Below, in pieces: positions 2,332 to 22,703 of a stretch of 43,429 bases of DNA. The stretch covers positions 1 to 43,429 of the forward strand of contig JAFSMX010000031.1 in NCBI GenBank assembly GCA_017447725.1, read 5' to 3'. Position numbers and translations under genes: made by a program. Position 1 is the first letter of the stretch. Each line of letters opens with the position of its first letter. The notes beneath the pieces were generated by a model. The model was not told the origin of the DNA, searched no databases, and saw only the letters and a program-made list of their open reading frames with translations. The DNA is from Bacilli bacterium (lineage in GTDB: Bacteria; Bacillota_I; Bacilli_A; RFN20; CAG-826).

Positions 2332-2751
2332 TTAGATTTTGAAGATATTTAATCCGGTTTTAGAATCCTTCATTCTTTCAATGGTTGATTTTGTCAAACC
2401 AATCACACATTCGAAGGTTCCAGAAATGCGGCAATAAGATAGGTGTCCACCATAAACATTAAAGTCTTTATCACCAAAACTTATATGTAAATGAAGGTAT
2501 GGTTCACCATCTTTTCTCGAGACGTTTCCGAGGCATGAAATAATCTCAAAATCTCCTTCGAAACGTTTAGATTTGTATTGTTGTTTTTCAACTTCGTATA
2601 AACCGACTTCGATAAGGTCTGCTGCACCAATTGCAGAGACAAATCCGCCATGGAGGTTCTCGTCTTTAATGATTTTTAAAAGAGACGAGACTACTTCTTC
2701 TCCGCGGTCTAAACGAACAATAATTTTTCCTTCTTCAACTTTATATTCCAT
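2332..2751 (-). CDS. PPC-domain (DUF296) protein
   Basis: A stand-alone PPC/DUF296 domain of 139 residues. Family hallmarks are GGFVSAIGAADLIEVGLYE (about 36-54) and G(N)VSRKDGEPYLHLHISFGD followed by YGGHL, which supplies the conserved histidines of the trimeric fold's metal site. In plants this domain follows an AT-hook and mediates oligomerisation. The function of bacterial stand-alone members is unknown. I take ATG 2751 as start; an in-frame TTG lies two codons upstream at 2757. Neither start has a Shine-Dalgarno site, and the yebC terminator ends only a few nt upstream, which is unusual. Confidence 0.85.
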   Translation of the reverse strand: MEYKVEEGKIIVRLDRGEEVVSSLLKIIKDENLHGGFVSAIGAADLIEVGLYEVEKQQYKSKRFEGDFEIISCLGNVSRKDGEPYLHLHISFGDKDFNVYGGHLSYCRISGTFECVIGLTKSTIERMKDSKTGLNIFKI

Positions 2752-2754
2752 AAG

Positions 2755-2782
2755 CAAATAAAAAGAGAGATAAATCTCTCTT
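2755..2782 (-). terminator. Terminator after yebC
   Basis: A perfect 8-bp stem AAGAGAGA/TCTCTCTT with a TTTA loop and a T-rich tail (TTTATTT) on the minus strand. The stem starts one nucleotide after the yebC stop codon, and the T-run runs almost into the start codon of the DUF296 gene. Confidence 0.8.
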
Positions 2783-2783
2783 A

Positions 2784-3491
2784 TTATAATTCAACGTTGT
2801 GAGCAACGTTTTGAACGTCTTCGAGTTCATCAAGAGCATCGATGAGTTCTTCGAATTTACGTTTGTCTTCTGGATCTTCGATTGTCATCCATTCATTTGG
2901 TTCCATACGAACTTCAGCTTCTTCGAATTCGGTAATTCCCATTTCAGCGAGAACTTCTTTCGCTTTCGCAAATGATTCTGGAGTTACATAGACATAGATT
3001 GTATCTTCGTCTAATTCAACTTCTTGAACATCGACATCGCCAAGAATTAAGGCTTCTTCGACTTCATCGCGGTTTGTTCCTTTGAAGGCTAACACACCAA
3101 GTTGTGTGAAGTTGAAGATAACGCTACCTAAGTGACCACCCTTACGAATAACGTTTGTACGAACTTCAACTAAAGCACGATTTGGGTTATCAGTTAAGGT
3201 ATCGATGATAAGGTAAGAATTTCCTGGTCCGAAGGCTTCATATCTTCCTTCAACGTATGCGACTGCGTCTCCACCTTGTGCTTTCTTAATCGCACGATCG
3301 AAGACGTCGCGTGGAACTGATTTACCACGATATTTTTCATAAACAGCTCTTAAGGCTAAGTTTGTTTTTGGATCTGGGGATCCTTGTTTAGCAGCCATGT
3401 ATGCTTCTTTAGAAGCACGAGCGTATAATGCTGATTTAATTTTTCCTGTACGAGCCATTGCGGCAGCACGGACTTCATGATGTCTACCCAT
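2784..3491 (-). CDS. YebC/PmpR family protein (YeeI/YebC2 type)
   Basis: A 235-residue YebC/TACO1-family protein. The N-terminus MGRHHEVRAAAMARTGKIKS replaces the MAGHSKWANI of classical YebC, which places it near the YeeI (YebC2) branch. Other conserved segments are PRDVFDRAIKKAQGG (about 60-74), the glycine/asparagine-rich NVIRKGGHLGSVIFNF, and the acidic C-terminal LDELEDVQNVAHNVEL. YebC proteins were long listed as transcription regulators. Recent work ties the family, including the B. subtilis YeeI type, to relief of ribosome stalling at proline-rich stretches. It has its own promoter and an SD AAAGGAG 8 nt before ATG, followed by a tight terminator, so it is probably monocistronic. Confidence 0.93.
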   Translation of the reverse strand: MGRHHEVRAAAMARTGKIKSALYARASKEAYMAAKQGSPDPKTNLALRAVYEKYRGKSVPRDVFDRAIKKAQGGDAVAYVEGRYEAFGPGNSYLIIDTLTDNPNRALVEVRTNVIRKGGHLGSVIFNFTQLGVLAFKGTNRDEVEEALILGDVDVQEVELDEDTIYVYVTPESFAKAKEVLAEMGITEFEEAEVRMEPNEWMTIEDPEDKRKFEELIDALDELEDVQNVAHNVEL

Positions 3492-3517
3492 AAGTATTTT
3501 CTCCTTTGGCGTGTATT

Positions 3518-3545
3518 ATTATATGCCTATTGGTGTATTTTTCAA
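3518..3545 (-). promoter_or_regulatory. Promoter of yebC
   Basis: Minus strand TTGAAA (3540-3545), 16-bp spacer, TATAAT (3518-3523), giving a leader of roughly 20 nt that contains the SD. Confidence 0.7.
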
Positions 3546-3556
3546 AGAAAAGTCAC

Positions 3557-4285
3557 CTAATATTTCACTTCAACAAGGTATAAACCCTTAGCGTCAGCTT
3601 TGTAAGATACTGGTTGTCTTGTTGGTTGGCAAAGGATTTCATCAACATCGACAATCTTCATTTTTCCTTTACCTACTTGAATGAGTGTGCCTACTAATAG
3701 GCGCACCATGTAACGCATGAACCCATTTCCTACAAATGTAATGTGTAGATGATGATCAAATTCATCAATTATGATGCGGTAAATGATTCTAACAAAGTTA
3801 TCTTCATCTTCTTCTTTCGTCGTAAAGTTTTGGAAACAGTGTTTGCCTTCAAGAATTTTTGCACACTTTTTCATTTCCTTAATATCGAGCGGTTGATCGA
3901 CAACTTCTTCGTATTTATAACCGAAGGCACTCTGTTCTTGAAGGTTGATAACATAACGATATGTTTTTTCTTTTGCACTTAATCGAGCATGAAAGTCGTT
4001 TGGAACAACTTTAAGTGATTTAACACGGATATCTTTTGGAAGGATGCAGTTAATCGAGTGTCTAAATTTATCTAAATCTCTTTCCTCTTCAATATCAAAA
4101 TGGAATGTTTGTCCTAATGCATGAACACCAGCATCAGTACGACCACTGCCAAAAATTTTTGTCGGAGTATTTCTAATCTGAGATATGGCTCGTTCAATTG
4201 TTTCTTGAACACTAACCTGGTCTGGTTGGTATTGCCATCCTGCATAAGAGGAACCGTCATATTCACAAACAGCTAAAATTCTCAT
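3557..4285 (-). CDS. truA: tRNA pseudouridine(38-40) synthase
   Basis: TruA isomerises uridines 38-40 in the tRNA anticodon arm. The 242-residue length is typical. The catalytic aspartate is Asp51 in GSGRTDAGVHALGQ, preceded by YDGSSYAGWQYQP at the N-terminus. The C-terminal GNGFMRYMVRLLVGTLIQVG motif is also diagnostic. The start overlaps the ecfT stop by four bases (ATGA), so translation is coupled. It ends the ECF operon, as in other Bacilli. No terminator is obvious after it. Confidence 0.97.
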   Translation of the reverse strand: MRILAVCEYDGSSYAGWQYQPDQVSVQETIERAISQIRNTPTKIFGSGRTDAGVHALGQTFHFDIEEERDLDKFRHSINCILPKDIRVKSLKVVPNDFHARLSAKEKTYRYVINLQEQSAFGYKYEEVVDQPLDIKEMKKCAKILEGKHCFQNFTTKEEDEDNFVRIIYRIIIDEFDHHLHITFVGNGFMRYMVRLLVGTLIQVGKGKMKIVDVDEILCQPTRQPVSYKADAKGLYLVEVKY

Positions 4286-5211
4286 TTTTTATGCCTCCTT
4301 GCATTTTCTGCACCAATACCAAATAAATAGAACAAAACACCGCAAATTCCAATGATTAACCATGGTACAAATAATGGGGTTTTGATGGTGAAATCCATTG
4401 CTGAGAACACAATTGTAGCGGCCATAAAAATCGTACAAAGAAGAAGGGCAAATAAATCATTCCAAGCGAAATGAAGCTTATGATAAGTTGTTCGTTTTGC
4501 TTTTGGATTATATCCTCTTGCTTCCATGCTATCTGCCAATTCTTCAGCACGTTGGAAACTAGAAATAAATAGTGGAACGATTAACGAAATAATCGCTTTA
4601 AAACGAGATGAGATTTTACCGTGTTTAAAGTCGACTCCACGACTGGTTTGAGCTTTCATAATTCGTTCAACCTCAATAAGTAAAGTTGGGATAAAACGAA
4701 GAGCAATTGAAATTGTCATGGCAACCTCGTGTGTTGGGAATCTAATTAGTTTTAATGGCTTCATGAACCACTCTAACGCATATGTTAAGTCGAGTGGTTT
4801 TGTTGAAGTAGTAAGTATCATGGTTAATGTAATCATTAGGAATAATCTCAAGATGATTTTTAGGGATTGGAAAATCGATTCCCAATAAATGTCGAGAGAG
4901 CCAATTGAGAAAGCAATATTAACCGCATTCCTAGGCTTAACTAGAATATTGATCAAAAGCAGGAAAATAATTAAAAACCACATCGCTCTAAGAGATTTAA
5001 ATAATGACTTAAATGATGTTTTTGAAATGGCTGCTAATAAGAAAATAAATACAAGCAAAATGCCTCCAATAATGAAGGTCATTTCCCATGTTGAATAAGA
5101 AATAAAAATCGCAACCATTAATAAAATTAATGAAAGTATCTTGATACGAGGATCAAGGCGATGAATAAATGTATCGCGAGGAGTATAGCGACCAAGAGTA
5201 ATGCTACTCAT
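4282..5211 (-). CDS. ecfT: ECF transporter transmembrane subunit EcfT
   Basis: EcfT is the membrane scaffold of group-II energy-coupling-factor transporters. It joins the EcfA1-EcfA2 ATPases to interchangeable vitamin-binding S components. The protein (309 residues) has about six hydrophobic segments. Its coupling helices carry the two Arg-Gly motifs that dock on the ATPases: TSRGVDF and SMEARGYNP. The start overlaps the end of ecfA2 by eight bases. It is expected to serve the folate-type S component (7571) and the QueT-like S component (40618) in this window, plus others elsewhere. Confidence 0.95.
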   Translation of the reverse strand: MSSITLGRYTPRDTFIHRLDPRIKILSLILLMVAIFISYSTWEMTFIIGGILLVFIFLLAAISKTSFKSLFKSLRAMWFLIIFLLLINILVKPRNAVNIAFSIGSLDIYWESIFQSLKIILRLFLMITLTMILTTSTKPLDLTYALEWFMKPLKLIRFPTHEVAMTISIALRFIPTLLIEVERIMKAQTSRGVDFKHGKISSRFKAIISLIVPLFISSFQRAEELADSMEARGYNPKAKRTTYHKLHFAWNDLFALLLCTIFMAATIVFSAMDFTIKTPLFVPWLIIGICGVLFYLFGIGAENARRHKK

Positions 5212-6070
5212 TTTTCGCCCCTCCTTTTTGTTTGGCTATAACATCAACGATATCATCTAGAGACTTAATTTGTTGAAGGTCAAATTTATAACCTTTTTGT
5301 TTAAGTTCTTGAATCAAATGTGTCATTAAAGGTGTTTCTAAGGAATATTCATCAACACTCTTATCAAACAATTCATTTGGTGTACCTTGATAAACAATTT
5401 TTCCATGATCCATCACAATGACATCTGTGGCATAACCATAAACTAGATTCATATCATGAGTCACAACAATTATCGTCGTTCCGTTATCGTGTAACTCTTT
5501 AAACAAAGTCATCATTTCCTTTACGCCACGTGGATCAAGTCCAACTGTCGGTTCGTCAAGAACGATGACTTCAGGTTGCATGGCCATAATACCAGCAATG
5601 GCTACACGACGTCGTTCACCACCACTTAACTCAAATGGGGATTTTTTAAAGAATGACTCATCTATACCAACCTTAAGTAAGTTTTCATGAGCAAGTTTAA
5701 GAGCATCTTCTTTCTTAACTCCAAAATTTGTTGGCCCAAAAGCAACATCTTCTTCAACAGAATTTTCAAATAATTGATATTCGGAAAATTGGAAAACGAT
5801 TCCAACTTTTTGACGTAATGGACGAAGTTTTTTAGTTCGTTCTTTTTTATTACTAGAAACAACGAAATCACCAGCAAAAACCGAACCTTTTGTTGGAATA
5901 AGCAAACCATTTAGTTGCTGAATGAACGTTGATTTTCCGCATCCAGTATGTCCAACAATACATGTAAATGATTTCTCTTTAATTTCGCAATCGATATCGT
6001 TTAAAGCTTCAAAAAGATTTGGTGCTTTATCACCATAATAGAAATCGACGTGGTTGAACTTTAATTTCAT
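5204..6070 (-). CDS. ecfA2: ECF transporter ATPase EcfA2
   Basis: The second ATPase of the shared ECF module (288 residues). Visible motifs are Walker A GHTGCGKST (about residue 41), Q-loop VFQFSEYQLF, signature LSGGERRRVAIAG, Walker B VIVLDEPTVGLDP and H-loop THDMNL. The QLFENSVEEDVAFGP stretch is characteristic of EcfA. It overlaps ecfA1 by four bases (ATGA) and ecfT by eight, so the module is tightly coupled. Confidence 0.95.
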   Translation of the reverse strand: MKLKFNHVDFYYGDKAPNLFEALNDIDCEIKEKSFTCIVGHTGCGKSTFIQQLNGLLIPTKGSVFAGDFVVSSNKKERTKKLRPLRQKVGIVFQFSEYQLFENSVEEDVAFGPTNFGVKKEDALKLAHENLLKVGIDESFFKKSPFELSGGERRRVAIAGIMAMQPEVIVLDEPTVGLDPRGVKEMMTLFKELHDNGTTIIVVTHDMNLVYGYATDVIVMDHGKIVYQGTPNELFDKSVDEYSLETPLMTHLIQELKQKGYKFDLQQIKSLDDIVDVIAKQKGGAKNE

Positions 6071-12982: not shown

Positions 12983-15900
12983 TTATTGTTCCTTTCTCTT
13001 ACGAATAAAGATGTATCCACCTAAAGCGATTAAACCGACTGTTGTAGCAATTATCACGATAGTAATTCCGCTGAATTCGCTAAGTGTGTTTATTCTATTT
13101 GGTAATAATCCATTATAAGCACTACGGCCCATAAAGTCGGCATAACCATAACGAGAAACAAGTTGATCGTGTTTTAAAACAGCATCAAGAATTGCTGGAT
13201 CAGTTGGTATGGCAACTTGGAAGTAAGCTTTAACAGTCCCATCTAAACCATTAAATGATTGTGTTAATGTTGCCCATGTTTTTCCAGTGACTATTGTTGG
13301 CGCTTTTTCCCCACCATAACAAACTATCGAATTACTAAATTCAACCGCAAATTGCTGAGCTTTTTCTAAATCAGTAGGGGTCTTTTCCTCACCTACATTA
13401 TATGAAATTTGATAAATACAAATACCTTTAGAAATGTTAGTGAGAGTGATAGTTATTGTTTGACCGTTCTTAGAAGAAGAGCTTTCAATTGTACTTGTAG
13501 TACTTGCCGTAACATTTCCTGTTCCAATTGTTGTTCCATCAACAGCAATTGTTACGGTTGCGGCCGATCCACTATTCCCTCCGACTTTAAAACTAACAGA
13601 ATTAACTAACATGCTTGATCCGAGGTTCATGGTAAGTGTTATTTTGGTGGCAGGATCTGATGATGAGCCCACCTGAGAGTAACTCGGATTTTGTGAATAA
13701 GAGGAGGTTCCTTGAGTTGAAACAGTCCAAACATTTGATAATGAATCTGTAGCATTGACAGATGAACTATTGATTCGTGTGCAACCAGTTCCGCTACCAA
13801 ATTTAACTAAACCACCTTCTACTTCGCCACCAGATTCCTTAACAACAATTCCGTAAGAAGTCGACTTCGTAACATTGTGTTCGCTATAGCTTACAGAAAC
13901 ATTGTACGCACCGGCGGTGCCCATATCGTATCCACTAAATGTTGCTGATGATGTAACATCAGTAGAAGTTTCATCCTCATAGTGAGCTGTTACTGTTGGC
14001 TTAACGAATGTAGAACCTACATTATATGAATCAGTAATATTTGATAATTCAATATAAACTAGATCATAGTAAACAACAGTAACGTCAAAAGTGGTTTCCT
14101 TATTTTTATAAGAAACAGTAACTGTTTGGTCGCCTTCTGTTAATTTATTAAAGCCACTCAATTCATACTTATTTGATGAGACGACATCATAATCACTTTC
14201 ATCATAATAAGCTCGCACTTCAAGGTTAGTTCTATCTATTTCTGTGTTATATTTAACTTTTGAGCCATTATAAATTGCTGTAATATGATCAACCTCTTTC
14301 AAAGAAGAATCATCAATTGTAATCTCGATATTTTTTACATATAGTGAACTTGTAGTCGCATTAATCTCAAACACTAAATCACCATCAACCTCGAAAGATG
14401 ATGAGCAATATTCCTTATATTGATAAGAAGTTGAAATGCTATTATTTGGAATTTGAACTGTACTTATTGTGGCATTGTTATTTTTAACTACTAAATTTCC
14501 AACACCGCTACTACTTCTCTTAATATTTAATTTTATTGAAGTTATCGTATATCCTTCGTACCCTTTCAAAGTCCATGTTTGGTGATTATTCTTAGTTATT
14601 TGTTCATATGTGGTCGTGTAGGTGTTACTGAATGAAACCGATGAGCCAGTCGGTGGTGTTCCACTATTTAATACAACAGTCTGCGCACCTGTACACTCAT
14701 AATTAACAGATGTATTTTGAACAACAGTGATTGTGCTGGCTGCAGTTTTAGTTGTGTCTAAAACGGATCGCGCAGTAATTGTTGCTGTTCCAACAGCATG
14801 AGGCGTTACTAACCCATTTGAAACTGTTGCGACTGAGGTATTACTAGTTTCCCAAGTTACTTCAGTTGATCCACTATAAGTTGTTACAACATTTGCACTT
14901 AATTGAACAGTCTCACTATTAGCTAAAACTAAGGTTTTTGATGTCGGGCTTACTGAAATACTTGTCACCTTAGGTGTTGTATCAGAAATAATAACTCTAC
15001 GAGTACAGCTTACTGTCGTGTCTTGTTTTGATGTTGCTTTAATGTCTGCATAACCAGTTTTTAGACATGTTACACGACCATTTTGATCAACTGTAGCATA
15101 GCTAGAGCTTAAAGAACTCCATGTTACTCCATCATCTTCTAAGTTTGTTCCATTTACTGTTGCAGTAAGTTGAATTGTATTTCCGTTTTTAAGGTCAACA
15201 TTACATTGTCCATCTCCTGGACTAATCGTAACAGATGTAACCACAGATGGATCTTGGTTATAAACATTAATATCAGCGTAAGCTTCAAGTTCTCCGTCGT
15301 AAGATAAGCAGTAGGCACGTGTGTTGCCAACTCCAACAGGAGTCACAACACCATCTTCATCAATTGTGGCGATATTGTTATCTTCGGTATCCCATAATAC
15401 TCTTTTGTCAGTTGTATCAGATGGAGTAAATACAGCAGATAAAGTTGTAGTTTCGATTGTTGCGAGATTTAAACTTACAGAACTTGGAGAAATTGACATG
15501 GAAGTTGGGTGAACCGCTTTTTGGGTTACAGTTACCTCAACAAGGTCACCATAAGAATGTGATTCATGATCCCAAACAAACACTGTTTCAGTGCCTTCTT
15601 TAAGAGCGGTGATCAAACCACTATCACTAACACTAATTACACCATTATCATTGTATAATTCATAAACTAATCCTTGGTCAGTCGCAGAAACAGGAAGGAC
15701 ATGTGCTTGGATTTGTGATGTGTCGCCAACCTCAAGAGTTAATGACTTATCAGAATCGACACACACTTCAGTGACATTTGTACCTAAATCAACAAGTCTA
15801 TCGATTGCTAAACGTCCATAACCAAAGGTTGTATCCCAACCAGATGTGCCTATATCCACACACGAATTCCATAAATCCGTTTTAAATTCGTCTACTGTTC

Positions 15901-17011
15901 CAGATGGGTTAGCTTGTTTCCATAATGCTGCTGCACCAGCAACAATTGGGGAAGAAAATGAAGTGCCTTGGGTTTCACTATAAGTGTGACCGCTTGTACT
16001 TGAGTTCCAACTGGCGGTATAAACATAACCTGGTGCAACTAAGTCTACGTTATTATTTCCTGTTTTAGTGCTTCCAGAAGCATTGTAATTCGAGAAGGAT
16101 GCTTTTTCAGTGCTTGAATCTCTACCTAATGAACCAACACCAATTGCCTTCGGACTTGAAGCTGGGTAAGTTGCAGTATCGTAATTACTATTACCAGCTG
16201 CGGCAACAACAATTGTGCCTTGATTGACTATATAATTTACGTATGTATCGACTAGTTCATAATATGGTGCTTCGATTGACATATTCACTACATCAATTGC
16301 TGTTGAAGTATTCGCGTTAAGAGTATTCTTAATGTAATAAAGAGCATTAAAAATACTATCTGTCCAAAAATCTACTTTAATCGGGACGATAGTCACTTTT
16401 GGAGCGATACCGATTGTTCCGGTATGAGTTGTATCATGAGCTCGACTAGCTAATGTTGAGCAAACATCTGTTCCGTGCTTACTATATTTCGAGTAGCCAG
16501 CCCAAGGTCTTAAAATAGAATCGCCATAGTACCAAACATCATTGATTTTATAACCGACATTTTCAGCTTGTGGGGCAAATTGAACAACTTGGCCAGAGCC
16601 TGTTTCACCAGTCTTATCCATTGTATATGTAGCATTTTGACCAGTAACAGCAGTAGCATGGGCGAACATTCTTCCTTCGGAAATACTAAACATGCTATTT
16701 CCTTGTTCATCAATAAAGTCTGGGTTATCTAAGTCGAAACCAGAGTCAATCACAGCGACTCGAATACCATCGCCTTTAAAGTTATCCCAAACACTTTCTA
16801 TGTCTCCAACGTGATCCATGGAGATATTTTGTTTGGTTTCATAGTACTCATCTGTTGGTGAATAAGCCGGTCTTCCTTCTTTTGCTTCTGGGTCATACTC
16901 AGAAACAATAATTGCTTCAGCAGGAAGAAACTTTTCTTGAGTGCCGAACAAAAAAGTCATCGCCATTGCTGACAGGCATAACGATGCTAATAATTTAGTT
17001 CTTCTTTTCAT
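12983..17011 (-). CDS. Secreted, membrane-anchored subtilisin-like protease with Ig-like repeats
   Basis: A 1342-residue S8 protease. A signal peptide (KRR, then hydrophobic 7-22) is followed by the catalytic domain: Asp89 in VAVIDSGFD, His179 in SKHGTDVCSTLAS, oxyanion Asn273 in AAAGNSNYD and Ser351 in QGTSFSSPIVAG. Four BIG2-type Ig-like repeats follow at about 415-500, 505-590, 598-680 and 690-770. Beyond them are a beta-sandwich-like block (about 780-910), one or two BIG3-like repeats (about 915-1060), a further beta block, and a helical region containing RYGYADFMGR. The C-terminus is one membrane helix and RKRKEQ; there is no LPXTG motif, so anchoring is by the helix. No strong SD precedes the ATG. 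The substrate is unknown; host or community proteins are plausible. Confidence 0.93.
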   Translation of the reverse strand: MKRRTKLLASLCLSAMAMTFLFGTQEKFLPAEAIIVSEYDPEAKEGRPAYSPTDEYYETKQNISMDHVGDIESVWDNFKGDGIRVAVIDSGFDLDNPDFIDEQGNSMFSISEGRMFAHATAVTGQNATYTMDKTGETGSGQVVQFAPQAENVGYKINDVWYYGDSILRPWAGYSKYSKHGTDVCSTLASRAHDTTHTGTIGIAPKVTIVPIKVDFWTDSIFNALYYIKNTLNANTSTAIDVVNMSIEAPYYELVDTYVNYIVNQGTIVVAAAGNSNYDTATYPASSPKAIGVGSLGRDSSTEKASFSNYNASGSTKTGNNNVDLVAPGYVYTASWNSSTSGHTYSETQGTSFSSPIVAGAAALWKQANPSGTVDEFKTDLWNSCVDIGTSGWDTTFGYGRLAIDRLVDLGTNVTEVCVDSDKSLTLEVGDTSQIQAHVLPVSATDQGLVYELYNDNGVISVSDSGLITALKEGTETVFVWDHESHSYGDLVEVTVTQKAVHPTSMSISPSSVSLNLATIETTTLSAVFTPSDTTDKRVLWDTEDNNIATIDEDGVVTPVGVGNTRAYCLSYDGELEAYADINVYNQDPSVVTSVTISPGDGQCNVDLKNGNTIQLTATVNGTNLEDDGVTWSSLSSSYATVDQNGRVTCLKTGYADIKATSKQDTTVSCTRRVIISDTTPKVTSISVSPTSKTLVLANSETVQLSANVVTTYSGSTEVTWETSNTSVATVSNGLVTPHAVGTATITARSVLDTTKTAASTITVVQNTSVNYECTGAQTVVLNSGTPPTGSSVSFSNTYTTTYEQITKNNHQTWTLKGYEGYTITSIKLNIKRSSSGVGNLVVKNNNATISTVQIPNNSISTSYQYKEYCSSSFEVDGDLVFEINATTSSLYVKNIEITIDDSSLKEVDHITAIYNGSKVKYNTEIDRTNLEVRAYYDESDYDVVSSNKYELSGFNKLTEGDQTVTVSYKNKETTFDVTVVYYDLVYIELSNITDSYNVGSTFVKPTVTAHYEDETSTDVTSSATFSGYDMGTAGAYNVSVSYSEHNVTKSTSYGIVVKESGGEVEGGLVKFGSGTGCTRINSSSVNATDSLSNVWTVSTQGTSSYSQNPSYSQVGSSSDPATKITLTMNLGSSMLVNSVSFKVGGNSGSAATVTIAVDGTTIGTGNVTASTTSTIESSSSKNGQTITITLTNISKGICIYQISYNVGEEKTPTDLEKAQQFAVEFSNSIVCYGGEKAPTIVTGKTWATLTQSFNGLDGTVKAYFQVAIPTDPAILDAVLKHDQLVSRYGYADFMGRSAYNGLLPNRINTLSEFSGITIVIIATTVGLIALGGYIFIRKRKEQ

Positions 17012-17200: not shown

Positions 17201-18448
17201 TTAAAGTTTAATGTCTTCCGCTTTGCATTTACGGCCCGGTTTGATACTAATTTTGCCTGGTTTAATTGCTCCAACTGGACAGACATGTCCACAAAGTAGA
17301 CAACCGACGCACTTATCGGTATTGCAACTTGGCTGACGTTTCTCAGCGTCCCATTCAATAGCTTGGTGACCGCCATCGTAACAAGAGATGTAGCAACGTC
17401 CACACTTGATACATTTATCAAGATCAATGTCTGGACGAACAATGTAGTCACGATTGAGGTTTTCAGCTGGAATGATGTTCTTATTGGCTTTTCCAACAAG
17501 TTCATGGAGTGAATCAACACCTTGTTCTTCCATGTAGTGTTCAAGACCGTTTTTCATGTCTTCAACAATACGGTAACCATATTGCATAATTCCGGTTGTA
17601 ACTTGGAGTGTTGTTGCACCAACTAAGATAAACTCAGCAGCGTCTTCCCAAGTTTCAATACCACCAATACCAGAGATTTCGAGGTTTTCTAAACCTTCTG
17701 CTTGTCTCATTTGTTGGATAAAACGAAGAGCAACTGGTTTAACAGCTTTTCCAGAATATCCAGAAATAGCTGATTTTCCATCAACGATTGGTAAACCAAC
17801 TTTCTTATCTAAATCGATATTACAAATGGATTTAATGGTGTTAATTGCGGCAATTCCATCAGCACCACCTTCTAAGCAGGCTTTTGCAACTGGAACCATA
17901 TCAGTGATGTTTGGTGTCATCTTGGCCATCATTGGAAGCTTGCTTCCACGTTTAACGGCTTGGCAGTACTTCTTACAAAGTTCAGCATTTGTACCAACGT
18001 CGCTACCCATGGCGTGGGAAGTCATTTGTGGACAGGATAAGTTCATTTCGATCATATCCGCACCAGCTTCTTCAACCATGCGAGCTAAGTCTTCCCATGT
18101 TCGTTCATCATTACCCATGATTGAGGCAATTAGGACTTGATTTGGGAATTCCTTTTTAAGTTTTCTTAAATCGCGTAAGTTCTCTTCGAGACTATGTTCA
18201 GCGATTTGTTCCATGTTCTTAAATCCAACAAATGGAGTCGATTCCTTGTTGAGCTTATCGAAACGTGGAGAGACTTCATCAATAAAGTATGATTTTGGAC
18301 CGATTGTCTTAAAGACAACACCTCCCCAACCAACTTCATATGCTTTCTTACACATGTCGTAGCAATTACCGACTGGTGAAGAAGATAAGCAGAATGGGTT
18401 TGGGAATTTGACACCTAAGAAGGTGACTGATAAATCTTTATGGACCAT
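17201..18448 (-). CDS. preA: NAD-dependent dihydropyrimidine dehydrogenase, catalytic subunit PreA
   Basis: A 415-residue protein: an FMN-binding dihydroorotate-dehydrogenase-like barrel (about 1-310) followed by two 4Fe-4S clusters ([11 protein letters not shown] and [12 protein letters not shown]). The active-site loop [17 protein letters not shown] and the stretch [20 protein letters not shown] match E. coli PreA closely. With PreT it reduces uracil and thymine to the 5,6-dihydro forms, a redox or degradative step; this enzyme pair also inactivates 5-fluorouracil in gut bacteria. It lies one base after preT. No dihydropyrimidinase or beta-ureidopropionase gene is in view, so a full catabolic route is not shown. 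Confidence 0.96.
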
Positions 18449-18449
18449 T

Positions 18450-19682
18450 TTATTTACCTCCTAAAGCAGCGTGGACATATAAAGCCACTTCTTTACCAGT
18501 ACGAACACCGCCAACGACGGTTTTATCGTATGCACTATGTGCAATGTCGCCACAAACAAAGACTTTTGGATCTTTGGTGTAGTATGGACGACCTTCATTA
18601 ACTTCGCCTTTAACTAGATCAATTCCAAGACCTTTAACTTCTGGATATTGACCAACAGCAAGAACGATTAAGTCGGCTTCAACTTTCACTTCGGCTTTGA
18701 TTTCACGGTGTGAGAATGTCACAACGTTACCTTCCACTTTAGCTGGAACATATCCATCAATAATGGTTACACCAAGTTTTTGAGCGCCTTCAAGTTCTTT
18801 CTTGCTTGCTTTAAATTCCTTAAATTGTTCGTAAACAACATCAGTTACGTGTTCCACACCTAAGAGTTTCATGGTTGAGACAACATCCATGGCGACGTCA
18901 CCACCACCAACAACTAAGACGTTAGCTGGAACTTTAACATTTCCGCCTTTTGCTTTAACTTCTCTTAAGAAATCAACAGCAGAAACCACATATTTGTTAT
19001 TTTCAAAGGCTGGAAGCATCTTGCCATAGCTATAACCTGGAGCTAAGACAACTGCGTCATGTTTCTTCTTTAAGTCTTCTACGGAAATATCTTTACCAAC
19101 TTCACATCCAGTGTGGAATTTCACACCTAAGTCTTCGATACGTTTAATTTCGACATCAACGACACGGTTTGGTAAACGATATTCTGGAATTAGTCTAAGC
19201 ATACCGCCTAAAACTTTTTCTTTTTCGTAAACTTCAACTTCATATCCAAGTTTATTGAAGCTTACTGCTGCTTGAAGTGCAGCTGGACCAGAACCAACAA
19301 GAGCAACGGATTTACCGTTTGGTTTTCCTTTTTCAAGGATCTTCATCTTGTTAGCTTCTTCAAAGTCAGTCACATAACGTTGAATACGTCCGATATCAAT
19401 TGGTTTATCAATACCGCTACGAGAACAACCTTTTTGACAGTATTTTTCGGTTGGACAAACGCGAGCACAAATTGCACCTAAAGCGTTGTTTTCACGAATT
19501 GTTTCAGCCGCACCTTTAAAGTTACGGAAACGGACTGAACGAATAAATTTGTCCGGATTAGTGCCAGCCGGACATGCTTTCGAACATGGTGCATCATGGC
19601 AAAGAAGGCAGCGGGCTGCTTCTTCACAAACATTTAATGGAGAAAAACCAGGTTCGAAATCTTTTTTGTAATTTGAATCCAT
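18450..19682 (-). CDS. preT: NAD-dependent dihydropyrimidine dehydrogenase, electron-input subunit PreT
   Basis: A 410-residue flavoprotein related to the glutamate synthase small subunit. N-terminal cysteines ([16 protein letters not shown] and [16 protein letters not shown]) ligate two 4Fe-4S clusters. The FAD-binding Rossmann motif is [14 protein letters not shown] and the NAD(P)-binding one is [13 protein letters not shown]; a final CGD stretch (VFVCGDIA) closes the FAD site. It passes electrons from NADH to PreA. Start ATG 19682 has AAAGGAA as SD. Alone it could be mistaken for a GltD, but the adjacent preA settles the call. Confidence 0.94.
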
Positions 19683-19766: not shown

Positions 19767-19820
19767 AATATTGGGGTTTTGCAAAAAAATCAACAGCAAA
19801 ACCTAAATAAAACAAAAAAG
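19767..19820. repeat. Hairpin-bearing intergenic repeat, copy B
   Basis: The second copy of the 17106-17157 element. The inverted repeat is perfect here: GGTTTTGC (19775-19782) and GCAAAACC (19796-19803). It sits between the lemA terminator and preT, about 85 bp before the preT start. The remaining 19683-19766 is AT-rich, with no gene and no convincing promoter that I can place. Confidence 0.65.
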
Positions 19821-19839
19821 ATCCCGTATAGAGATCTTT
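19812..19839 (-). terminator. Terminator after lemA
   Basis: AAAGATC (+TC) pairs with (GG+) GATCTTT around TATAC, followed by TTTTG on the minus strand, about 30 nt beyond the lemA stop codon. Confidence 0.8.
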
Positions 19840-19867: not shown

Positions 19868-20524
19868 TTAATTGAAGAAAGTGCCGCGTGCTTGTTCTTT
19901 TGTTTCTTTCGAAGCAGAGAATGGAATACGGGTTGTATAACCGCGTTTTGCAGCGATAATCATTGGGAATGGCCATTCAAAGATAAGTTTGTTCCATTCA
20001 GCAACAACATCGTTATAGTGTTCACGAGCAGCAGTAATTTCACGTTGGGTGTAGCTGTTTTGTTGCATGGCTGCAGCAAGTTCTTGGTGAGCCTTAAGAT
20101 CTGGATAGTTTTCTAAAGCAACATTAATCTTATTGCCAACATTTTCAAGTGCTTTGTTGGTTTCGGTGAAGTTATCGGCACCACCAGCTCTAAGACGAGC
20201 AATTTCCGTAAATGTTGATTTGTCTAAATCCATACCTTTTGTGACAAGTTGAGCAGCGTTTTGAAGAATCATGACGCGTTGTTCTAAGTAGTTATCAACT
20301 TGAGAAGCGGCTTGTTGAATCTTTTGTTGTAATTGACTTAGTCTCTTACCAGCGTTCACTCTTGCAAGTAAAACGAATGGAATTGGAAGAATGAATAAGC
20401 ATAAGACAACTTGGAAAATTGTTGATCCAACACCAACTTTCACCGGGATTTGTTTTTCAATGACATTAACGTCACGTCCAGATTCGTTCACTGGACCAGT
20501 GATTTCGTCTAATTCATTTGCCAT
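19868..20524 (-). CDS. lemA: LemA family protein
   Basis: A 218-residue LemA protein: short N-terminus, one membrane helix (about 33-54, STIFQVVLCLFILPIPFVLL), then the long helical bundle. Typical segments are QQKIQQAASQVDNYLEQRV, the ANLYPDL-like ENYPDLKAHQELAAAMQQ, and AREHYNDVVAEWNKLIFEWP near the end. LemA proteins are widespread, function poorly defined, and usually paired with a membrane partner gene. Here the partner is the 564-residue protein directly upstream, two bases apart. The SD AAGGAGAAC precedes the ATG. A terminator follows. Confidence 0.9.
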   Translation of the reverse strand: MANELDEITGPVNESGRDVNVIEKQIPVKVGVGSTIFQVVLCLFILPIPFVLLARVNAGKRLSQLQQKIQQAASQVDNYLEQRVMILQNAAQLVTKGMDLDKSTFTEIARLRAGGADNFTETNKALENVGNKINVALENYPDLKAHQELAAAMQQNSYTQREITAAREHYNDVVAEWNKLIFEWPFPMIIAAKRGYTTRIPFSASKETKEQARGTFFN

Positions 20525-20526
20525 AA

Positions 20527-22221
20527 TTAGTTCTCCTTCTTCGCCATCAGCGATTTTAGATTATTTATATCTACATTCAAGCCTGATTTTAATGCAATTA
20601 GGCCACGAATGTAAATAGTGTTTTGATTGTCAATGCCGCGGAATGAGAGTTCATCTCCGCCAACATTGGCTGTTTGGATTTCTCCTTCGCCAGTAACTGG
20701 AATGTATTCATACCAGGTAACTGGAACCATATAACTTCTTCCATTACCAGCAATAACTGGAACCATATCAACATGTTCTTCTCTTCTAAAAGAAGAGGCA
20801 ATAACGTGAACTTGGTCGGCACCATTTTTCTGTCCTTCAAATTTTGTATGATAAATGATGTCAGTACAACTATCTGGATCAGCAAAATCCTCTGGATTAT
20901 ATCGATTTGTCATCATTTCGTGTTCGAATGGAGTCATTTGAGATTTAATTGAATCACCAAAGATATATTCGTCAGCTTTCATTTGTTGATATAAAGGAAT
21001 GGATAAGAGAGGTGCGAAGTCAAAGAACACCGCTTTAAAGTAATAATCACAGAATTCAATAAATTGGTCTTTGACTTTCTCATAATCAAATCCACGGAAA
21101 TCAACAATATCCATAAAGATTGATCTTCCTCGCATATGTTCTGATTCAATAATGTTGATACATTTATCCTTCTTCATATAGAAGTCATCTCCGAATCCTT
21201 CATTAGAAAAGAGGAGATCAATCATTGCTTTTTGAGCAAGTGGGGTAAAGAGTAATCGATATTCAACTTCGTTATTACGATCAAGACCGCCGAAACTAAG
21301 TTCGAATAATGGATTTCCTAACGGAGTATAATTTCCGCCCTTAGACATCTGTTTTTGGGCTAATTTACGTAAATCATCTTCATGATGACGAACATACTTT
21401 TCACGTTTTTTCTCATCATCCATCCCACGCATCTGGCTTGGACCTCGAGTAAAGGTGAGATGAGGTGCGGCTTGGTTACCATAAACTAGATAAGTTTCAT
21501 TGGAATATTCTGGTTTTGGTTTAGTGACTGTTGCTCTTAAAGTTTCAGTAACTGTTGTTGTATAACTTCCATCTTTTGTACGAACAACACGTGTATAAGT
21601 CACAACACGAGTTCCTACATACGTAAATGGGCGCATGTTCATCACTTTATCTTTAAAGAAGACAAATGGGTTACCTAAAATACTTCCCGTTTGTAGATTA
21701 AGTACGGAGCGGTTTTCCATCGAAGATGACCACATGCCATACTTTTTAGTGAGCATTTCGTATTTTTTAATATCGAAGTTTCGATCCATCTTAATCAATG
21801 GACAACTTTCCTGGAATAGTTTTGCTGGAATGTCATCGGAAAACAGTTCATTTAAACTCGACATCTGTGCCCAGGCTTCTTCATTTAGCTTGGCAATTTC
21901 TTTTTCTAACTTCTCAATTTCCGCCTGAATTCTCTTTTTTCGTGGCTTATAAACATAGATAAATAAGAAAATACCAACAATCACTAAACATAAAATTCCA
22001 AAAAGAATCGCTAACCAAACCATGTTTCCAAGTTTGTCTTGGAGTTTCTTTAAGGTGTCTTTTTTCGCGTAATATCGATCACACGTTGATTTATTTGCAC
22101 CAACGTCTGTTCCCGCTTTTTGAGTTAGACGCTCAAAATAATCACAAACGCGTTCGTGATGAGTTTGTTTGAGTTCCAACTTATAAAGCCTAGAAGGCTC
22201 TAAGAGGTCTTGTTCAATCAT
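20527..22221 (-). CDS. Unrecognised membrane protein paired with LemA (564 aa)
   Basis: I do not recognise this family. The N-terminal about 65 residues are soluble and charged. A membrane helix at about 67-90 (MVWLAILFGILCLVIVGIFL) is followed by a basic stop-transfer RKKR and a coiled-coil segment (about 95-117, EIEKLEKEIAKLNEE). The large C-terminal part (about 125-564) is mixed alpha/beta and contains a threonine-rich beta stretch around VVTYTRVVRTKDGSYTTTV. No catalytic motif is evident. It is the first gene of a two-gene unit with lemA and has no SD. Its -10 box lies 11 nt before the ATG, with a 25-bp palindrome beyond. It probably forms a membrane complex with LemA (inference). Confidence 0.7.
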   Translation of the reverse strand: MIEQDLLEPSRLYKLELKQTHHERVCDYFERLTQKAGTDVGANKSTCDRYYAKKDTLKKLQDKLGNMVWLAILFGILCLVIVGIFLFIYVYKPRKKRIQAEIEKLEKEIAKLNEEAWAQMSSLNELFSDDIPAKLFQESCPLIKMDRNFDIKKYEMLTKKYGMWSSSMENRSVLNLQTGSILGNPFVFFKDKVMNMRPFTYVGTRVVTYTRVVRTKDGSYTTTVTETLRATVTKPKPEYSNETYLVYGNQAAPHLTFTRGPSQMRGMDDEKKREKYVRHHEDDLRKLAQKQMSKGGNYTPLGNPLFELSFGGLDRNNEVEYRLLFTPLAQKAMIDLLFSNEGFGDDFYMKKDKCINIIESEHMRGRSIFMDIVDFRGFDYEKVKDQFIEFCDYYFKAVFFDFAPLLSIPLYQQMKADEYIFGDSIKSQMTPFEHEMMTNRYNPEDFADPDSCTDIIYHTKFEGQKNGADQVHVIASSFRREEHVDMVPVIAGNGRSYMVPVTWYEYIPVTGEGEIQTANVGGDELSFRGIDNQNTIYIRGLIALKSGLNVDINNLKSLMAKKEN

Positions 22222-22232
22222 AGTTTAATTCT

Positions 22233-22263
22233 ATTATACCTATTATTTATATTAATAAATAGG
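22233..22263 (-). promoter_or_regulatory. Promoter and abutting palindrome of the lemA-partner operon
   Basis: A consensus TATAAT (22233-22238, minus strand) lies 11 bp from the start codon. An imperfect 25-bp palindrome (22239-22263, ends CCTATT and AATAGG) abuts it, occupying the spacer and -35 region, where no -35 consensus is seen. A regulator bound there could replace or block sigma contacts. Confidence 0.5.
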
Positions 22264-22269
22264 AATTTT

Positions 22270-22303
22270 ACAAAAATAAAAGAGAGCCACAGTGTGACTC
22301 TCT
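22270..22303 (-). terminator. Terminator of the long ribosomal block (after rplQ)
   Basis: AGAGAGTCA pairs with TGGCTCTCT (one G-T wobble) around a short loop, followed by TTTATTTTTG on the minus strand, 20 nt after the rplQ stop. Confidence 0.85.
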
Positions 22304-22322: not shown

Positions 22323-22703
22323 TTATTTTACAAATTCCACAATGACGACTTGCGCGTTATCTCCCTTACGGACACCAGCTTTAATTGCACGGGTGTATCC
22401 GCCATTACGAGAAGCATAACGGGTAGCAAGTTCACCAAAGACTTTGGCTAAAGCTTCTTTGCTCTTAAGTACGCTAGCAGCTTGTCTACGAGCGTGAAGA
22501 TCGCCACGTTTACCTAAGGTAACGAGGTGATCAACCATAGTTTTAAGTTCTTTGACCATACCGGAGGTCACTGTGACTCTTTCAACTTCAACGAGTGTTG
22601 TAGCAAGAGTACGTAATTTGTTTTCGTGTTTCGACTTGGTATATCCAGCTTTAAAGCGGACACCGGCTTTACCGTGGACGTTTTTTCTTCCTTGAGCGGC
22701 CAT
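22323..22703 (-). CDS. rplQ: 50S ribosomal protein L17
   Basis: A large-subunit protein near the exit-tunnel side; 126 residues. The middle segment TLVEVERVTVTSGMVKELKTMVDHLVTLGKRGDLHARR and the end YTRAIKAGVRKGDNAQVVIVEFV match L17. The N-terminus (MAAQGRKNVHGKAGVRFKAG) is degenerate relative to the canonical MSYRKLGR start, and the first 25 residues lack the usual SRxHRKAL pattern. It follows rpoA at 13 nt with an SD and ends the block. The ecfA1 gene that normally follows is elsewhere. Confidence 0.92.
   Translation of the reverse strand: MAAQGRKNVHGKAGVRFKAGYTKSKHENKLRTLATTLVEVERVTVTSGMVKELKTMVDHLVTLGKRGDLHARRQAASVLKSKEALAKVFGELATRYASRNGGYTRAIKAGVRKGDNAQVVIVEFVK

Follow-up and report, generated by a model that had tools for sequence, protein, structure and literature searches.

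A MAG1210-family membrane protein and a LemA of a distinct subfamily as a candidate two-component membrane complex in Bacilli

We found that a membrane protein of the MAG1210 family and a LemA protein are encoded side by side in a 43,429-nucleotide stretch of DNA from a Bacilli bacterium (contig JAFSMX010000031.1; hereafter the window), and that LemA is a near-constant neighbour of MAG1210 in the loci analysed. In our judgment there is an even chance that the two proteins form a dedicated two-component membrane complex, in which a LemA of a distinct subfamily would be joined to MAG1210, an apparent enlarged and remote relative of DUF3137.

The MAG1210 and lemA genes look like a two-gene transcription unit

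Both genes are on the minus strand. The first (20527-22221) encodes a protein of 564 aa and the second, lemA (19868-20524), a protein of 218 aa; a check of the open reading frames returned the coordinates and strand given in an earlier sequence-only reading of this DNA. The two genes are separated by 2 nt. The genome to which the window belongs (0.9 Mb in 39 contigs, 94% complete) contains one LemA match.

There are terminator-like hairpins with T-tracts on both sides of the pair, each also detected by RNA folding. One, at 22281-22303 on the minus strand, is 3' of an upstream open reading frame (22323-22703) that we take to be L17/rplQ-like, and the other, at 19817-19839 on the minus strand, is 3' of lemA. 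Their folding z-scores were -3.71 and -4.49, respectively, and none of 200 shuffles equalled either value. In three related loci (L101-L103), T-tract hairpins of partly different sequence were found by eye at both equivalent sites. Because terminator-like hairpins bound the pair on both sides, MAG1210 and lemA look like their own two-gene transcription unit, as had been proposed. The next gene downstream of lemA (18450-19682) encodes Fer4_20 and Pyr_redox_2 domains.

The sequence-only reading had also given the unit a palindromic promoter of its own, and this part did not hold. The strong palindrome corresponds to the terminator-like hairpin that follows the L17/rplQ-like reading frame and looks like the terminator of an upstream ribosomal-protein operon, so we dropped it as a promoter. 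An AT-rich imperfect repeat at 22229-22273 is 71% complementary and was not retained, as judged by eye, in L101 and L102. A promoter-like site at 22255-22228 (minus strand) matches at 9 of 12 positions, and the region has fewer such sites than its shuffles (five, compared to a mean of 9.6).

The large protein belongs to a named family

The 564-aa protein had been described as unrecognised. It is a member of the MAG1210 family (NCBIfam NF046000), scoring 540.1 bits against a cut-off of 275 (E 5.9e-162). The family takes its name from a locus tag of Mycoplasma agalactiae. MAG1210 is a named but uncharacterised family, and the question of whether the partner would match a characterised one is thus answered in part: it has a named family, and that family is uncharacterised. 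No Pfam family matched the window protein over its cut-off. Matches to Pfam DUF2207_C below the cut-off occurred in 41 of 72 MAG1210 members and are probably membrane-helix matches. These 72 sequences (alignment A4) are the window protein and those from 71 of 80 named loci. The nearest named records come from Bacilli metagenome-assembled genomes, with 99% identity in a record labelled 'uncultured Bacillales bacterium' (L103), 77% in UBA3207 (L101) and 51% in Candidatus Fiminaster equi (L107).

lemA is found directly behind MAG1210 in nearly all loci

We determined how often the two genes occur together in genomes and at individual loci. Among 59 genomes (the window's own and its relatives from the order down), MAG1210 was over its cut-off in 31, each of which had a LemA match; one of these matches (in G031) is a contig-end fragment below the Pfam cut-off. 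LemA was also found in 10 of the 28 genomes that lack MAG1210 over its cut-off. All 29 LemA matches that scored 68-85 bits in this set were in MAG1210 genomes. The sequence-only reading had offered lemA without the partner in most relatives as grounds for rejecting the pairing; lemA does occur alone in some relatives, but none of those genes is of the 68-85-bit class. In a draw of 295 genomes from the phylum, LemA was found in 247 at E 0.001 (245 over the Pfam cut-off) and MAG1210 over its cut-off in 81; this draw includes genomes with several in-frame TGA codons, which were taken to be mycoplasmas reading TGA as Trp. LemA was present in 6 of 14 named control genomes.

At the level of loci, lemA lies directly behind MAG1210 on the same strand in 28 of 30 loci (counting as present two LemA truncated at contig ends), 29 of 29 (one, L086, with lemA as two reading frames), 41 of 47 (some with partial or broken MAG1210) and 78 of 80 named loci, the last being the best 80 of 479 confirmed loci among at least 590 pattern matches. 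The four sets share some members. This adjacency bears out the view of LemA and the large protein as a unit. The named records, again the best 80 of 479, include Bacilli, Clostridia (e.g., Anaerocaecibacter muris), Acholeplasmatales and Anaeroplasmataceae. Over 168 pairs, the gap between the genes had a median of 21 nt and a range of -59 to 575.

Some of the misses come from limits of the sequence: three loci (L031, L147, L226) stop at a contig end and one (L183) is cut. Of the two misses among the 80 named loci, one stops at a contig end and the other has a lemA interrupted by an in-frame stop; in L157, lemA is in place behind MAG1210 and has one in-frame stop. There were five true misses, loci with enough sequence to hold it in which lemA is not directly behind MAG1210 (L016, L206, L216, L223, L224). 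In two of these, L223 and L224, the MAG1210 copy is broken; L223 also has a piece of lemA ahead of MAG1210.

No conserved third gene was found by clustering the other reading frames of the 80 named loci (the best 80 of 479). The largest cluster in these loci was ABC-transporter-like and occurred in 23 of the 80, on both strands and in varied places; the next was present in at most 8.

The LemA of the pair belongs to a distinct subfamily

The identification of the smaller protein as LemA was confirmed. It scored 76.3 bits against Pfam LemA (PF04011; gathering score 26.2), and its AlphaFold2 (AF2) model, which has a modest pLDDT of 67, matches 2ETD, a crystal structure of LemA (Foldseek E 4.1e-5, target TM 0.80, 27% identity). 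The LemA domain is at 19892-20311 (minus strand). A transmembrane segment is predicted at about residues 33-58 (20351-20428, minus strand), from hydropathy (residues 26-59) and the AF2 helices (33-44 and 48-97).

LemA proteins linked to MAG1210 differ from other LemA in forming their own clade and in carrying a conserved tail, some 30 residues long, at the N terminus. Alignment A5 of these proteins holds the window LemA and 49 of the 78 LemA from named loci. Their Pfam scores are also lower: 68-85 bits for 29 LemA of the MAG1210 class, compared to 113-196 bits for the 12 best others. A few LemA outside the MAG1210 class in the 59-genome set scored 20-47 bits.

We built a tree of 102 LemA proteins by a quick method, with SH-aLRT support and without bootstrap, and labelled each protein with one of five kinds of partner. 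The 29 MAG1210-linked LemA fell on one side of a branch and 23 DUF3137-linked LemA on one side of another, each with SH-aLRT of 100. The MAG1210 rows were drawn from MAG1210 loci (29 of many more), so that orphan LemA of this clade fall outside the sampling. A long branch (1.87) leads to the clade of MAG1210-linked LemA. Over the whole tree there were 14 changes of partner label, compared to 58.6 in shuffles, with near-copies among the rows favouring such clustering. The 26 LemA with mycoplasma DUF3137-like neighbours (within 400 nt) accounted for 11 label changes, as did the 17 LemA without a recognised neighbour, and the 7 LemA with a long neighbour accounted for 2. The partner split is clean for the MAG1210 and DUF3137 classes only. 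One genome (G055) has both pairs, with LemA of 148.7 and 72 bits, one adjoining DUF3137 and one adjoining MAG1210.

A complex would require LemA and MAG1210 to bind each other. We calculated inter-protein couplings from 145 of the 168 MAG1210-LemA pairs, the number left after removal of duplicates, and 7 of the 50 top pairs were outliers. The top pairs were carried by hub positions (LemA 124, 166, 210 and 211; MAG1210 44), and we dropped the interface that these couplings suggested.

Alternatively, the genes might be adjacent for co-expression alone, with LemA and MAG1210 acting in the same process and forming no stable complex. The arrangement as a two-gene unit between terminator-like hairpins would be expected in that case too, there are a few genomes with the genes apart or with a lone MAG1210 (e.g., G027, at L016, and a second copy in G131, at L216), and the couplings reveal no clean interface. 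However, MAG1210 and DUF3137 are paired with different LemA clades, for which specific binding is the simpler account, and we consider co-expression alone unlikely, though it is the alternative that we take most seriously.

MAG1210 is predicted to have a hydrophobic helical hairpin and long-stranded beta parts

The MAG1210 protein of the window was modelled by AF2 from an input of 72 sequences, with pLDDT of 90.2 and pTM of 0.84. All of its parts are on the minus strand. The N-terminal helical segment (residues 1-62; 22036-22221) has AF2 helices at 9-36 and 40-77 and contains P9, which is invariant in both a 41-sequence and the 72-sequence set. It is followed by a hydrophobic segment at residues 67-91 (62-94 by hydropathy; 21949-22023), within which the model has a helix break at 78-82 with blocks of pLDDT 66 and 71, and by a helix that could form an antiparallel coiled-coil arm (residues 92-125; 21847-21948; AF2 helix 83-125). 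The first beta part (residues 171-259; 21445-21711) is made of predicted strands at 171-181, 184-215, 218-248 and 256-259, two of them about 30 residues long, and the second (residues 456-519; 20665-20856) of strands at 456-465, 468-490 and 496-519. Couplings between residues 211 and 224 and between 205 and 229 in the first part, and between 489 and 499 in the second, agree with the strand hairpins of the model.

The hydrophobic segment sits at the turn of the two long helices. For this reason we interpret the model as a hairpin of helices that is hydrophobic at its tip, combined with long-stranded beta sheets. The layout of one helix, a coiled coil and a large domain, as first described from the sequence, survives in outline: there is one hydrophobic segment, a helical stretch and a large domain that has no Pfam match over cut-off. 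The hydrophobic stretch is longer than 45 residues in 59 of the 72 members, leaving room for two membrane helices, whereas it is about 34 residues or shorter in 13, including the window protein with 33. The mean net charge flanking the stretch is +2.9 on one side and +2.0 on the other (72 members). Since both flanks are positive, the positive-inside rule suggests that both soluble parts, including the beta-rich domain, would face the cytoplasm.

Searches of the PDB gave no convincing relatives of MAG1210, either by sequence (best E 0.1 for the protein alone and 0.011 as a profile, at residues 56-145) or by fold (Foldseek, no matches at E 0.001; best E 0.063, with TM 0.07). Long-stranded pore-forming proteins were frequent among the leading Foldseek rows, and we attribute these to chance. 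The rows from VIA-align (Z 9.1-10.6) were set aside as well; they mostly match residues 37-121 to helical hairpins of unrelated proteins, concentrate on those residues and barely cover the beta part.

MAG1210 might instead be an enzyme or part of a transporter, with catalytic residues that we overlooked. Seven polar residues (R315, D345, D346, K351, H362, E435 and N439) are invariant in the 72 members, as a catalytic site could require. Against this, these residues are scattered and intermixed with G, P, F and L, no Pfam family is over its cut-off, and there is no convincing match to a PDB sequence or fold. We found no enzyme signature in MAG1210 and regard a catalytic or transport role as quite improbable.

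MAG1210 is linked to DUF3137 through intermediate proteins

DUF3137 (Pfam PF11335) is another family found beside LemA: lemA was in the same locus (1.5-kb flanks) for 23 of 40 DUF3137 loci examined. The two families are alike in having a LemA neighbour, an N-terminal hydrophobic stretch with positive flanks and a core that can be connected through intermediates. They differ in size, DUF3137 proteins being about 270-400 aa in the loci that were read and MAG1210 proteins 520-746 aa. DUF3137, too, gave nothing convincing in a sequence search of the PDB (best E 0.076).

Direct comparisons gave little. The Pfam DUF3137 model (gathering score 26.1) did not match the window protein up to E 10, and DUF3137 was absent from the 25 most matched Pfam families for the 72 MAG1210 proteins at E 0.1. 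Weak matches of the full DUF3137 model to three members of MAG1210 (E 6.8e-5 to 1.7e-4) were set aside and carry no weight here. We compared profiles, using for DUF3137 an alignment (A3) of 28 of the 40 loci; L048 was omitted for a wrong reading frame, and L033, L035-L041, L055, L065 and L068 were also left out. The full-length profiles matched with a probability of 87.1%, and then 91.7% (score 59.8). The membrane part drives this score, and we rejected it as proof of homology. The soluble-part profiles scored 21.1, which is not significant (best of 60 shuffles, 25.2).

We therefore base the link on a set of 32 bridge proteins of 300-380 aa, taken from 53 loci mostly around mycoplasma LemA genes and chosen by size and a DUF3137 match; seven of the loci feeding this set (L234-L240) were picked with knowledge of weak DUF3137 or MAG1210 matches. 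The bridge profile scored 107.8 against DUF3137 (best of 60 shuffles, 18.7) and 51.5 against the soluble part of MAG1210 (91.3%, E 9.6e-7; best of 60 shuffles, 22.9). The match to MAG1210 spans about 45 residues, lies outside the membrane part and falls within the columns of the DUF3137 match. In the window protein, the core in common with DUF3137-type proteins is at residues 299-340 (21202-21327, minus strand), as located by the bridge profile, a core HMM and the NCBIfam MAG1210 model.

With the MAG1210 core modelled in 57 columns, 20 of the 32 bridge proteins reached 5 bits or more (best, 28.4), compared to none of the 28 canonical DUF3137 proteins and none of 60 reversed decoys. The model also matched 4 of 178 other reading frames, three of which encode the long neighbours of LemA in L230, L275 and L278. 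In seven loci of one mycoplasma-like family (f16), lemA is preceded by a gene for a protein of 628-988 aa.

Individual LemA neighbours were scanned with both family models. Two of them matched the NCBI MAG1210 model far below its cut-off of 275 bits, one (L238) with 21.2 bits (E 9.7e-5) and one (L265) with 23.6 bits (E 1.9e-5). The same two proteins pass the Pfam DUF3137 cut-off (37.7 and 47.2 bits, respectively) over the same stretch, and their genes are 7 nt (L238) and about 450 nt (L265) from lemA. A third protein (L258) narrowly misses the DUF3137 cut-off, a fourth (L228) matches MAG1210 only, with 46.5 bits, and a fifth (L230) matches neither.

The likeness of the two families could have another source, with MAG1210 unrelated to DUF3137 and recruited beside LemA, and with convergence on membrane hairpins and a short motif. 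Compared directly, MAG1210 and DUF3137 score at shuffle level in their soluble parts, the bridge spans just ~45 residues, and one of the five proteins scanned matches neither family, all of which fits convergence. What weighs against it is that the core match is outside the membrane part and occurs in 20 of 32 bridge proteins but in no reversed decoy, that the NCBI MAG1210 model finds the core in two proteins accepted by Pfam as DUF3137, and that 26 LemA loci of the tree have a bridge protein within 400 nt. We think convergence improbable. Because a core is shared through the bridge intermediates, remote homology is likely but not certain, and MAG1210 appears to be an enlarged remote relative of DUF3137. 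By its scores, the window protein is kept outside PF11335.

Implications and comparison with known systems

A wider reading of these data is possible but somewhat doubtful. The LemA proteins of Bacillota and mollicutes might each be one component of a membrane machine built of two exchangeable parts, with the partners all drawn from a single superfamily and with LemA and partner having co-diverged, so that each LemA clade has partners of its own. This superfamily would consist of DUF3137, MAG1210, the neighbours of LemA in mycoplasmas and, from one mycoplasma-like family, the proteins of more than 600 aa that are encoded beside LemA. MAG1210 would be its giant form, possibly with a new long-stranded beta fold on a hydrophobic hairpin.

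In the open-licence PMC literature, we found neither the name 'MAG1210' nor a MAG1210-linked LemA clade or a link between MAG1210 and DUF3137. The gain of this analysis lies in these two points, the MAG1210-linked LemA clade and the link to DUF3137. DUF3137 is mentioned once each in two papers, in a table (PMC10434189), where it and 'LemA family' occupy separate rows, and in a figure legend (PMC13190619). The sequence-only reading had called the pair an undescribed membrane system, which is fair as to function; as to the partner, it is tied to DUF3137 via intermediates. Several little-studied families can be joined into one set of LemA partners, and the near-constant neighbour makes the function of LemA a directly testable question.

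The window LemA shares its domain, fold and N-terminal membrane helix with the LemA family at large (PF04011), including TM0961 of T. maritima (PDB 2ETD). In PMC4045577, a lemA of M. bovis is tabulated as non-essential with a value of 80.8, which we take to be the place of the insertion in percent.

The MamQ protein of magnetotactic bacteria also belongs to the LemA family, as described in the relevant sections of PMC4902198. The window LemA scored 28.5 bits against the MamQ model (NF040966), below its curated cut-off of 250, and the sections on MamQ in PMC4902198 do not mention a MAG1210-type partner. According to these sections, MamQ was as of 2016 the sole LemA protein tied to a known process; it was observed in patches that move within the cell membrane, and its proposed role is that of a hub arranging other proteins ahead of invagination. 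By analogy with MamQ, the simplest reading of the pair, though the weakest step of our account and on its own rather improbable, is that LemA and MAG1210 would form a membrane scaffold on the cytoplasmic face, and we infer that the likeliest function would be that of a partner-specific LemA membrane scaffold.

Membrane segment of the MAG1210 proteins

The hydrophobic stretch of the 564-residue MAG1210-family protein encoded in the window (22023-21949, minus strand) is 33 residues long, and the corresponding stretch exceeds 45 residues in 59 of the 72 MAG1210 proteins compared (the window protein and 71 others) and is short in 13. Given this difference in length, the membrane topology of the window protein may depart from that of most members, or its hairpin may be monotopic. 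Matches to Pfam DUF2207_C, all under threshold, were found in 41 of the 72 proteins (best E 1.2e-4); perhaps these reflect membrane helices only.

Variant loci

One locus (L159) has two copies of the MAG1210 gene (67-2307 and 3341-5431) and a single lemA, behind the second copy. In L157, lemA (2715-3380) contains one in-frame stop, either a sequencing error or a sign of a pseudogene, and the MAG1210 gene ahead of it is intact. At seven loci of f16, a mycoplasma-like family of genomes (L228, L229, L230, L233, L275, L277 and L278), LemA is neighboured by proteins of 628-988 aa, some with a faint likeness to MAG1210; these are perhaps a further type of LemA partner.

Other genes of the window

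Domain searches identified a 1342-aa subtilase (12983-17011, minus strand) that also carries one Ig-like domain of the Big_3 type and matches Big_2 in four stretches; a hydrophobic segment close to its C-terminus was seen by eye. It is likely a surface protease, encoded in a 0.9 Mb genome. Domain searches also showed that at 17201-19682 (minus strand) a gene with DHO_dh and 4Fe-4S domains adjoins one with Fer4_20 and Pyr_redox_2, a set of domains as in a dihydropyrimidine dehydrogenase PreA/PreT pair.
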